Source: Fragilariopsis cylindrus CCMP1102 (lineage: Eukaryota; Bacillariophyta; Bacillariophyceae; Bacillariales; Bacillariaceae). Taken from it: DNA of 64,000 nt. The stretch is from contig FMBT01000354.1 of the NCBI GenBank assembly GCA_900095095.1, positions 124,001 through 188,000 on the forward strand, given 5' to 3'. Below the pieces are notes generated by a model. It was not told where the DNA came from. It saw only the letters and a list, made by a program, of their open reading frames with translations, and did not search any database. Of this stretch, positions 14,668-26,470 are shown piece by piece. Both the position numbers and the translations under genes were made by a program. The stretch's first letter is position 1. Every line of letters starts with the position of its first letter.

Positions 14668-17312
14668 ATGTTTGCCGCCGAGAAATCAGTGGATACAACT
14701 ACTACTATAAGCACTACTAGTAGAGAGCTACGGATTGCTTGTTTAGAGCCATCCGCCACTGCTATTTGTTTGGAACTTGGACTTGAACAATATCTCGTTG
14801 GCGTTACTCATGAATGTGGGGGAATTCTCGATAGGCATTATTCCTTGGAGGACTGTACCGATGATAACGGTAATATTAATCGACCACTTGTAATGACTAA
14901 GAATGGGTTAACAGTTAATTCCCAAGCAGATATCCATCTTGCCATCCAAAAAACGGCCGCAGCCGTAGCCGCTGCGACTCAAGGAATATCATGCCCGATC
15001 CGAAACAACAACAACAATGATATTCTTCCGCCACCGTCCACCGATATACCTTCTTTGTATCCATTGATAGAAGTTAATATGTTATCTGCTCGACCGACTG
15101 TGATTTTCACACAAGATTTATGTGATGTTTGTGCTCCAAACACAGCCGCTGTTCGTCGATGTTTATTGAAGAATAGCAGTAGCGAAGAATTGGATACGAT
15201 CGTATCAGTGATTGCATTGCAGCCACATACTTTGCACGAGGTGACCGATACCGTAAGTTAACAACAACAATAAAAGAGATAAAAGGCGACAAGAAATATA
15301 AGGAAACCAATCAATAGATTACGCTATCCAAACTGGAGACGAAAAGACAACGTACGTACGTAACTCATATACTTCTGATTTTTTTTGTTTTGCTACAAAC
15401 AACGACAACGAACAACAACTGGTGTCCTCTTGGTATTCATTCATTTTATTTTTTACACATGACACAACTACACACATAGTTTGTAACCATTGCAGAAGCA
15501 TGTGGGATAAAAGAAAGAGGACAACGGTTGAAGGATGACTTTTTAAATAATCTCAAGACACTTCAACAGGCTATTCAAAAAAATCGAAGAAATAATCACG
15601 ATCCTTCAACAATGCCAAAATTATTTATACTAGAATGGCTCGACCCAGTGTTCGATTCAGGTCATTGGACGTGTAAGTTAAATGTAACAATACAAAGACC
15701 ACAGAGAATAATCATGTGTATTCGATACGAACACGAATACGACAGAAGACGAATGGTTTTTCTTTTTTACATTTTGAATATAATTTGATGTCGTTATTGC
15801 AAAACTCACAATATTTTAAAATACGATGGTGGTAAAAATAAATCGAAATCGGTATTATCTATTTTGTTTCTAAACTCTGCTGATACTTTAAAATGAATAG
15901 ACGAGATGATGGAATACGCTTGCGTCGAAACTGCTCGGCCTGACAAACACACGCATAAGGCCGTAGTTATTGATTGGGACGATGTGTATAAGGCAGATCC
16001 TGATGTTATCGTTGTGGGTTGTTGTGGCTTCGATCTAGAACGAAATGTTCGTGATACACTTGGTAAGAAAGAACGTCTTCAAAAACTCCGAGCGGGACAA
16101 AGCCATCGAATATACGCGGCGCACGGTGATTGGTATATTGCACAACCAGCTCCATTCTTACTTCAAGGAGTTGCATTATTAGCACAATGTGCGTATCAAA
16201 ACGAACAAAAAGTTTTGGATGCAATCGCTGGGCTGGGTTATGAATCATTGGGCTGGCAAGCAGTCGATGTTATGACGAACCACACCGATTCTTTACCCAA
16301 TGGAAAAAGAAAAGAAAAGACAAATACCTCGTTGTTCGTAGAAGAATCTATGATTGCTGATATGGAAGATCTCTTTCCTGATAAAGACGGCTTTTCTCAA
16401 GCCCATGACCTTGCCTGCGAAGAAGGGGAGTTATCGTACGTAGATCCAGAAACAGGTTATAATGTCTTTACAAAGATTGCTCATATGAAACGTGGGAAAT
16501 GTTGTGGTAACGGGTGTCGGCACTGTCCATATTCGCACAAAAATGTGAAAAACAAAGCAGCCAAAATTCAACAACCATCCATACTTTACCAACAAGAAAG
16601 GAGAGATGCAGATCAAAAATCCCAGATTTTTTCGATTGATACCAGCAAAGAAATTAAAGTTCTATTCTTTTCGGGTGGTAAAGATTCTTTTTTGGCAATT
16701 CGTGCACTTGTTAAAAGCTATAACCAAAACGGTCCCTTTGGACTGGTCTTAATGACCACGTTCGATGCAGCTTCTCGAATTATTGCTCACCAAGAAGTCA
16801 ATATCGACCAAATTATCAAACAAGCTTTTCATTTAAATATAACTCTTGTTGGAATTCCATTACGGAAGGGGAGCGGAGAAACTTATATAGATCGAATACG
16901 ATCTGGATTAGAGGTAATCAAATCTTTTGTTCCTTCCCAGGGTTGTATTTCGTCGTTGGTCTTTGGTGACTTGCATTTATCTCCCGTGAAGGAATGGAGG
17001 GACAAGTTTCTTACACAATTGAATTACGAATTGGAGTACCCTATCTGGAAAATATCTTATTCAGACCTGATAGAAGATTTGGAAGCAAGTAAGGTTCCTT
17101 GTCAAGTATCCGGGAGCACTCGTGAGAAAGAGGTACCATTGGGTACTGTGTTTGATAAAAAGCTATACGAAAGGCTGCTTGATTCAGACATTGATTCTTT
17201 TGGTGAATGTGGCGAATTTCATTCTCTAGCAATGGTGTGGGACGTCTCTCGCACAACTGCCTTAGGTTTGACAGATGAAGTGAATGCTACACTAGTAGTA
17301 TGTAATAGGTAA
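14668..17312 (+). CDS. BtuF-like / DUF5522 / DUF71 (PP-loop ATPase) fusion protein
   Basis: A 729-residue, three-domain protein in three exons: 14668-15252, 15480-15672 and 15901-17312, with GT-AG introns of 227 and 228 bp. Residues 1 to about 375 resemble periplasmic-binding-fold proteins of the BtuF (cobalamin) type: ATAICLELGL, HTLHEV, LEWLDPVFDSGHW, DPDVIVVGCCGF, and the DWYIAQPAP segment. Residues about 425-475 are a DUF5522-type Cys module (YVDPETGY, CCGNGCRHCPY). Residues about 510-729 are a DUF71/COG2102 ATP-pyrophosphatase with the SGGKDS PP-loop (about 517-522), FGDLHLSP and GECGEFHSL. The last two motifs resemble the non-Dph6 DUF71 subgroups that comparative genomics has linked to B12 salvage, rather than diphthamide synthetase. 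No signal peptide is seen. Inference: binds or processes a corrinoid or related cofactor. The ATG at 14668 is the first after an upstream stop-rich region. It converges on the next gene with a 96-bp gap. Confidence 0.82.
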
Positions 17313-24536: not shown

Positions 24537-26470
24537 CTATTGTTTTATTTCGCTGTTGTTGTCGTTATCATCTACAAATAGTTTGCTCATGTATGGACCG
24601 TCCAAGTCGTACCCTAACTTACGATAATAATGCCTTGTACCGACACCAGAAATAACTACAATCTTTTCCGATCCGTGTTCCTCTTTGGCTATCCGTTCTG
24701 CTTCTTCCATTAGTAATGTTCCAAAACCTTGATGTTGGAAGCGTGTTGGATCTCTTGCAGAAACCGCCACAGCACTTCCGTATACGTGCAATTCACGAAT
24801 GATACTACATGGTCGTTCTGTAATTTCAGGAAGGAATGCACTAGACATATTCGGTTTACGTAGTCGTAACAAACCAATCAAAATATCTTGTGTCGGATCC
24901 TCGTACGATAAGAATGTTTCCCATCCACCATTGGCAACATAATCTCGACGGATCATCTCCACCTGATCCGGTGTTACTGACGAATGGATTTGTTTCATAC
25001 CAACCTCACGCATTCGGATGTCCATACAGGGTAGGTCCCAATCTTGTAATTTCCTTAAGGCCAGTTCTCGTAAATTACCATGTTCGACGCCACTACTAAC
25101 CAATGGCATAGGGATATCTCGTTGAATTCTGTACATACGCGTCCACGGAGGAACTAAGCTGAGAATTTTTGCTGTCAGTTCAACTAATTGATCAGGTGTG
25201 TAGTTTCGATATCTACCTGTCTTCCACAATTCATACAATCCTGTTCCTCGAATGACTAATGTCGGGTATAGTTTCATCCCGTCACTACGGAATTGTGGAT
25301 TTTCAAAATATTCCTCAAATCCGGTAAGGTCACGTTCCCATCCCATGTTTGGTAAATCAGGCATCATATGTGTAACGACCTTGAAACCACAATCTTTAGA
25401 TAATTGAAATGAATGACATACCGCCGCAACTGTATGACCACGATTGGTTTCTCGTGCGACACTTTCATATATAGATTGAACACCGATTTCGATACGGGTA
25501 CATCCGTAGCTAAGCATTTCTTCTAAATGTGGTTTTAAACAATAATCGGGTCGAGTTTCGATTGTAATACCAATACATTTCACCTTCGCCTGTTCCGAAT
25601 ACCGAATCGATTCTTGGACGCTGTTCGAAGAGTATCCACTTAATGCATCATGTAAATTACGAATGAACCAATCCTTATATTCTTTGTCAAGTGAAAGAAA
25701 CGTACCACCCATAACAATAAATTCTACCTTATCTACGGTATGACCAATCGCACGTAATTGAGTAACTCGTCCCTTTACTTGTGAAAAGGGATCGTATCTT
25801 GCTCGAATTGCTCGCATCGATGTTGGTTCATATCCAGTGTAGGCTTGAGTAGAATATTCAAAGTCAGAATCAGGTCCACCGGGACAGTAGACACAAACAT
25901 TACCGGTATAGGCGATATGCGGACAACGATGCGGTTTGCTCATGACGGCTGCATACAACACAAGAGACAAAAAACGCAAACAGGATAGTAATTACGACGA
26001 CGATGACGGCGATGAACACGAAAACAAGAATAATGTATATGAGTGATTGAATGAATTTTCCATCAAATAAGCTGAAATGATACACATTTTATATATATCA
26101 TTGATCCCCGCTTTTTGTTGTTTTTCCAGATTTTTATGCATCATCCAATAATAAGTTACAAAGTACAGTACTTACCAACAACTGCCACACCTGATGCTGT
26201 TCGGACTGGTTTCGTTTGTAGGTATGGACGTAATTTATTTCGATAACTAATTGGTAAGGCTTGAAGTATATCAGCAAGCTTAGGTGTTCCCTGTAGTTTG
26301 TACTTTTTAGCAGCTGTTGATTTTAATTTTGTAAAGTTTAATGTGTCACCCGCATCATATGCCTTGATTAAATCCGTGACAACATGTGCCGTAGCTAATG
26401 CGTACTTCGATTTATGATCGGTCCCATTCGCACCCGCATTCGGCGTCATTGTATTAGCTGGTGCTACCAT
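24537..26470 (-). CDS. ELP3: Elongator complex catalytic subunit Elp3
   Basis: tRNA U34 modifying enzyme (cm5U formation) of 568 residues in two exons. Exon 1 is 26470-26176, the intron is 26175-25949 (227 bp, GTAAGT...GCAG, phase 1), and exon 2 is 25948-24537. The N-terminal part has [14 protein letters not shown] and the [12 protein letters not shown] tRNA-contact segment. The radical-SAM cluster Cys are C107, C117 and C120 (C-x9-C-x2-C, followed by PGGPDSD). [26 protein letters not shown] and THMMPDLP follow. The C-terminal GNAT domain ends with [16 protein letters not shown] and YYRKLGYDL. The length is normal for the family and no key residue is missing. The splice junction restores [21 protein letters not shown] exactly as expected. 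Confidence 0.96.

Follow-up and report, generated by a model that had tools for sequence, protein, structure and literature searches.

We analysed a stretch of 64,000 nucleotides from the diatom Fragilariopsis cylindrus CCMP1102 (contig FMBT01000354.1, positions 124,001 to 188,000; the whole stretch is called the window). Its subject here is a gene that encodes a BtuF-like domain, a DUF5522 module and a DUF71 PP-loop ATPase domain, and whose product very probably handles vitamin B12. The gene lies on the forward strand, with its ATG at 14668 and its stop codon at 17310-17312, and the spliced sequence of 2190 nt yields a protein of 729 residues. The BtuF-like domain (Peripla_BP_2, PF01497) is spread over three exons (14731..16185, +; residues ~22-355). 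This extent is based on homologue matches and alignment; Pfam alone matches residues 170-334 (15175-16124; E 9.5e-12, 45.3 bits, cut-off 27.5). It is followed by DUF5522 (PF17653; 16401..16544, +; residues 427-474) with 83.5 bits (cut-off 25, E 1.1e-23) and by the DUF71 domain (Diphthami_syn_2, PF01902; 16662..17231, +; residues 514-703) with 40.1 bits (cut-off 23.2, E 3.8e-10). That is, all three Pfam matches exceed the curated cut-offs, which confirms the combination in one chain that a preliminary description of this DNA had put forward. The motifs named there, i.e., CCGNGCRHCPY of DUF5522 as well as SGGKDS, FGDLHLSP and GECGEFH of DUF71, are all present in the translated protein.

The gene model comprises three exons, whose splice sites were picked by reading frame and homology, without a transcript. 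Exon 1 (14668..15252, +) contains the start codon and the N-terminal part of the BtuF-like domain with the motifs LEPSATAIC, THECGG and CDVCA. Exon 2 (15480..15672, +) covers the middle of this domain (EWLDP, GHW), and exon 3 (15901..17312, +) holds its remainder together with DUF5522 and DUF71 in a single open frame, stop included. Both introns (15253..15479, +, 227 nt; 15673..15900, +, 228 nt) follow the pattern GTAAGT...ATAG. The preliminary description had them join the three domains, whereas both interrupt the BtuF-like domain. Since a single uninterrupted frame (471 codons, 15897-17309) encodes the C-terminal part of this domain along with DUF5522 and DUF71, the domain fusion is independent of the intron model.

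DUF5522 proteins and their gene company

We searched the whole diatom genome for DUF5522, which yielded four matches above the cut-off and a weak one below it (E 0.34). Besides the window gene, a single frame of 1489 residues on contig C672 (L023:23-4492) combines CobB, BtuF, Kelch and DUF5522, where CobB reaches 389 bits with NCBIfam (cut-off 254). A second copy of this gene on C196 (L024) is frame-broken, i.e., it is spread over several frames near the contig end. On C91 (L022:1054-3075, -), the domain that follows DUF5522 is a cobalamin adenosyltransferase of the PduO type (150 bits vs. a cut-off of 108). Every intact DUF5522 protein detected in the genome, three in all, is joined to domains from B12 metabolism. 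The two fusions outside the window resemble the window protein in that DUF5522, in one case together with a BtuF-like domain, is joined to an ATP-using B12 enzyme. They differ in the partner, which is a cobyrinate a,c-diamide synthase or an adenosyltransferase and not DUF71. Both BtuF-DUF5522 chains of the diatom carry an ATP-using domain.

In bacterial genomes, 172 relatives were confirmed, of which the best 80 were analysed. The search pattern demanded CCGN, so that other versions of the motif are unsampled. The fourth cysteine and the proline, neither required by the pattern, are kept in all 80 of these matches and the histidine in 76/80. The best-scoring match (L110, 56% identity) stems from a metagenome-assembled genome (MAG) titled Klebsiella pneumoniae, which may be misassigned.

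Sixteen of the best 80 bacterial proteins carry an extra cysteine-rich (CWC) N-terminal part. For this CWC type, B12-linked neighbours are found at 5/16 loci, namely cobamide genes at L177, L178, L180 and L181, and additionally those of L118. The short DUF5522 proteins show such a link at 1/63 loci (L115, with genes for a TonB receptor and surface proteins that resemble those of L180); the short-type L140 was excluded from this count for its overlong frame. Fisher's test gives p-values of 0.001 for the comparison and of 0.005 without L118, to be taken as a guide only since related species are not independent. Matches to BtuD only and short BtuB matches near bacterial DUF5522 were not counted, because ATP-binding cassette (ABC) ATPases and TonB receptors are generic.

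The gene order in L180 and L181 is DUF5522-CobU-DUF71-CobT, while L177 and L178 resemble L181 but are without DUF71. CobT of L180 and L181 as well as CobU of L180 score above the respective NCBIfam cut-offs, and CobU of L181 is slightly below (153 vs. 161). A BluB domain is found above cut-off within the CobT of L181. The names CobS, CobC and Btu at the bacterial loci were given by reading and mutual similarity. In L118, a Bacteroidia MAG, genes for DUF5522, a signal-less BtuF-like protein and DUF71 adjoin, i.e., the diatom's three domains in a different order; the B12 link of this locus consists of the BtuF-like gene and DUF71 only. DUF71 is followed by DUF5522 on an Aureibacter plasmid, and a search of plasmid records with the DUF5522 segment alone found nothing. 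The structure model of the DUF5522-CWC protein of L181 reaches a predicted local distance difference test (pLDDT) score of 73.8 and a predicted template modelling (pTM) score of 0.62; the fold search with it returned no match at E <=0.001.

For viral contigs, we scanned IMG/VR with an alignment of four DUF5522 rows. This confirmed 107 relatives, 80 of which were analysed (L030-L109). We listed the neighbours at seven loci and found a protein of 617-634 residues one or two genes upstream in 6/7. NCBIfam assigns it to the adenosylcobalamin-dependent ribonucleoside-triphosphate reductases in 6/6 tested cases (E 1.4e-81 to 2.2e-78), with scores of 264-275 bits that stay below the cut-off of 340. 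The insertion domain of B12-dependent ribonucleotide reductase (RNR) is reported by Pfam in 3/4 of these upstream proteins, and tblastn located the reductase at the seventh listed locus (L037), too.

For all 80 loci, tblastn places the end of the reductase at most 400 nt upstream of DUF5522 in 62 cases and 536-835 nt upstream in 8 more. That is, a class II RNR is encoded within 840 nt upstream of a stand-alone DUF5522 at 70/80 viral-contig loci. Of the remaining ten, six have an upstream sequence no longer than 254 nt, while in four it extends over at least 418 nt and is reductase-free. The 70 loci do not represent 70 separate events, given that there are just 35 distinct DUF5522 segments; however, some versions of the reductase share as little as 28% identity. 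The same reductase was searched at the best 80 bacterial DUF5522 loci with 0 matches. An example locus is L030:6058-8129, where a DnaB-type helicase lies further upstream.

For DUF5522, a family catalogued without an assigned function, these three settings point towards B12. The name DUF5522 was found in no open-access paper searched, and the same collection yielded nothing on a phage class II reductase with a cysteine-rich companion.

Affinities of the BtuF-like and DUF71 domains

The N-terminal domain had been proposed to be related to BtuF. This is borne out by the Pfam match above cut-off, where the nearest relative is a signal-less bacterial 'cobalamin-binding protein' and not the transporter BtuF. 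Seven plasmid records match the whole window protein, five through the BtuF-like part and two through DUF71. The top match is a Qipengyuania protein annotated as 'cobalamin-binding protein' (WP_163886790.1; 29% identity, E 1e-24), which shows 34% identity to the window domain in a three-row alignment. Both have HEC, CxVCA and EWxDP in common, and neither has a signal-like N-terminus. The bacterial protein is encoded by a stand-alone gene, while the copy in the window contains insertions as well as two more domains.

We also compared the hydropathy of the N-terminus with that of a lipoprotein BtuF as control. Within the first 60 residues, the highest 11-residue average is 1.51 for the window protein vs. 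2.85 for the control, in agreement with the earlier claim that a signal peptide is absent. The signal peptide or lipobox of a BtuF transporter subunit is not found, as the window protein is without a hydrophobic N-terminus; its peak 19-residue hydropathy is 1.27.

Another known relative in structure is CBA1 of algae, which resembles BtuF and is required for B12 uptake (PMC10828217). CBA1 is described there with a signal peptide and membrane association. By hydropathy, there is no sign of either in the window protein, which in addition has an enzyme domain. The diatom genome also holds a BtuF-like gene without DUF5522 (contigs C611 and C706). Within long frames, Peripla_BP_2 gives two weak matches that stay under the cut-off (C790:1155-1298 and C8:1841-1984; E 0.03-0.04); at a guess, these could be CBA1 copies.

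DUF71 is present in three kinds in the diatom genome, i.e., Dph6-like, a GENGEYH type and the window gene. The Dph6-like gene with its EGGEYE motif lies on two contigs (L001 and L002, with equal scores). The archaeal-type model TIGR03679 is strict (cut-off 197.3): even L001 remains under it with 152.2 bits (E 1.2e-44), as does the window domain with its 21.2 bits. The GENGEYHT-bearing kind is found at L003:1231-2328 (-) in a frame without other Pfam domain, with L004 as a near copy that contains a stop.

The window DUF71 retains SGGKDS as well as the aligned histidine. At the place where Dph6 shows EGGE/DxE with the catalytic glutamate, it has GECGEFH. DUF71-B12 proteins are reported to carry a histidine at the place of Glu188 of Dph6 (de Crecy-Lagard 2012, PMC3541065). 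Compared to their motif ENGEF/YH, the window motif keeps the histidine at position 188 and replaces asparagine by cysteine. The window domain resembles the DUF71-B12 subgroup of COG2102, as characterised in PMC3541065, in the PP-loop core, in the histidine for Glu188 and, as far as bacteria are concerned, in the company of B12 genes. It differs by its motif, its divergence, its short C-terminus, its fusion and its eukaryotic host. With Dph6 (diphthine-ammonia ligase), it has the PP-loop superfamily and the ATP motif in common.

We built profiles from the rows of a DUF71 tree with 18 rows, which include the window domain, five Dph6 rows and ten bacterial rows. The window DUF71 scores 81.6 bits on the bacterial profile vs. 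8.6 bits on the Dph6 profile, a clearer separation than the tree provides. Since 3/10 bacterial rows come from B12-linked loci and the others from plasmid records, the former profile stands for 'non-Dph6' and not purely for 'B12'. The best tree unites the five Dph6 rows in a clade with support 100/99 and leaves the window domain outside it. By profile and motif, the window DUF71 is shown to be of the non-Dph6 type.

The fold search with a structure model of exon 3 gave six matches at E <=0.001, all to PF0828 (once with ATP) and PH1257 (best E 1.6e-6). A scan of viral contigs that started from exon 3 produced zero pattern matches. Scans with a DUF71 and a BtuF alignment produced 600 and 37 pattern matches, respectively, with 0 confirmed in both cases, so that structure prediction relied on shallow alignments. 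A phmmer search of the whole window protein against the PDB gave a single match that was judged to be chance. A substrate-binding neighbour of DUF71 in Allomeiothermus, considered as BtuF-like, was dropped, as by reading it is not of BtuF type.

The B12 gene set of the diatom

Domains of both METH and METE are found in the diatom genome above Pfam cut-offs. On contig C679 (769 kb; L220:6835-8101, L221:2592-5020), a region of 6.4 kb contains CobT, CobS and CobU, which form a small cluster for the cobamide nucleotide loop. CobS and CobT probably constitute one gene, and CobU carries a DUF4346 domain; the exon borders of both genes are provisional. CbiZ is placed head to tail with CbiB on three contigs (C451, L234; C288, L235:3081-5843; C126:17799-19952). 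By reading, the CbiZ frame continues into the start of CbiB, with more CbiB exons behind; the two are probably one fused gene with introns, whose exon borders are likewise provisional.

The single frames of CbiZ, CbiB, CobU, CobS and CobT score above the Pfam but below the NCBIfam cut-offs, which may reflect that they are pieces of split genes. Because the frames are split and the contigs long, bacterial contamination is disfavoured for these genes. Silicon-transporter matches in the genome amount to 27 (best E 1.1e-226) and mark it as that of a diatom.

Remodelling algae are reported to have CobT, CobS and CobC, while cbiZ and cbiB are given as absent from the algal genomes analysed, according to Helliwell 2016. 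A CobB-like protein was reported earlier from a haptophyte transcriptome (PMC4057078).

Proposed function and alternative readings

All three domains of the window protein are shown to keep company with B12 genes. The idea of a single-chain cobalamin-handling protein, raised in the preliminary description, is supported by the fusions of DUF5522 to CobB and PduO, the bacterial operons and the class II RNR neighbours in viral contigs. CobB amidates carboxylates of corrinoids, and the DUF71 enzyme that is known best, Dph6, uses ATP to amidate a carboxylate. As the simplest reading common to both BtuF-DUF5522 chains, we infer that the BtuF-like domain may hold a corrinoid, a side chain of which is activated by the partner domain and then amidated or linked anew. 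In the window protein, the signal-less BtuF-like domain would thus hold a corrinoid, and the DUF71 domain, given its conserved residues and fold, would bind ATP. It would then most likely activate a carboxylate of the held corrinoid for the formation or restoration of an amide linkage. With its four cysteines, DUF5522 would provide a site close to where the cobalt reacts, which could bind a metal, act as a thiol ligand or relay electrons. An intracellular enzyme of corrinoid salvage, remodelling or repair with this chemistry is, taken as a whole statement, a tentative proposal. It is also quite possible, if still short of probable, that DUF5522 is an accessory module for corrinoids in general, i.e., a compact site of four cysteines for their reduction, stripping or transfer, and that the window gene encodes a repair or remodelling enzyme in one chain.

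Alternatively, the protein might act as a corrinoid chaperone that binds incoming cobalamin, whose DUF5522 cysteines strip the upper ligand or reduce the cobalt and whose DUF71 does no more than time the release with ATP, similar to a step of MMACHC/MMADHC, where MMADHC acts by thiolate chemistry. We regard this as rather unlikely, yet as the other serious explanation. The fusion of DUF5522 to an adenosyltransferase and its place next to class II RNR fit such a role, as does the near-invariance of its cysteine, proline and histidine residues in the best bacterial matches. On the other hand, a Persicobacter copy shows a different cysteine spacing, and the roles known or predicted for DUF71 proteins are those of enzymes and not of timing ATPases.

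A CbiZ-like role, where DUF71 cuts the lower-ligand loop off pseudo-B12 and feeds CbiB, CobU, CobS and CobT, appears less likely, indeed improbable, in view of the CbiZ present. It was predicted for bacterial DUF71-B12 from the anti-correlation with CbiZ (de Crecy-Lagard 2012, PMC3541065), and the diatom has the downstream enzyme families. However, the diatom also has CbiZ next to CbiB, which would make the role redundant and weakens the idea that DUF71 stands in for CbiZ, although archaea can have both proteins (PMC3541065). Furthermore, an ATP pyrophosphatase would be an odd choice for a hydrolysis.

Very improbable is a diverged Dph6 or other amidoligase outside B12 metabolism (with a tRNA or protein target) that was fused by chance to a periplasmic-binding-protein fold. 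The approximately unbiased (AU) test leaves a grouping of the window domain with Dph6 unrejected (p-value 0.126), and the window domain sits on a long branch. This is opposed by the profile scores, the Dph6 clade of the best tree, the separate Dph6-like gene and the B12 company of all three domains. With regard to profiles, motif and the separate gene, the window DUF71 appears distinct from Dph6, while the tree does not exclude Dph6 statistically. Neither a firm grouping with Dph6 nor a lack of relation to BtuF nor separate genes for the domains was found.

Besides the AU test, several observations weigh against our preferred reading of the window protein as an intracellular corrinoid enzyme. 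The best tree joins the window DUF71 to the ten bacterial rows with weak support (59/88), and the domain is highly divergent (best identity 23%, end branch 5.09). It apparently is without the last conserved strand and has GECGEFH instead of GENGEFH. For exon 3, the structure model is of low quality as a whole (pLDDT 51.2, pTM 0.40), with the PP-loop domain as its best part. No B12-gene link was found with the queries used at 11/16 CWC-type and 62/63 short bacterial loci. The former include Pseudoalteromonas, Enterovibrio and others, where the starts of ten neighbour frames were read in addition. The Persicobacter DUF5522 mentioned above has no B12 neighbour by annotation, and no B12 gene was recognised by eye among the starts of the other window frames of at least 230 residues (read, without database search).

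The three families and the B12 link of DUF71 were known already from publications. The fusion and an algal CbiZ-CbiB are undescribed by the titles and abstract starts among the open-access papers listed, which is no proof of novelty. If DUF5522 is a general accessory module, phages keep it next to class II RNR, some Bacteroidota keep it in cobamide-salvage operons, and the diatom keeps it within three fusions, one of them encoded by the window gene in a genome with a near-complete CbiZ-CbiB-CobU-CobS-CobT pathway. Given the three settings that point to B12, DUF5522 could be approached in phage or Flavobacterium besides a diatom. Together with CobB and the fusions, the presence of CbiZ and CbiB alongside CobU, CobS and CobT suggests that eukaryotic remodelling may exceed the prior view, and a more complete remodelling bears on the question which algae can use cyanobacterial pseudo-B12.

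Elsewhere in the window, a frame at 24540-25991 (-) resembles, by eye only, the Elongator subunit Elp3.

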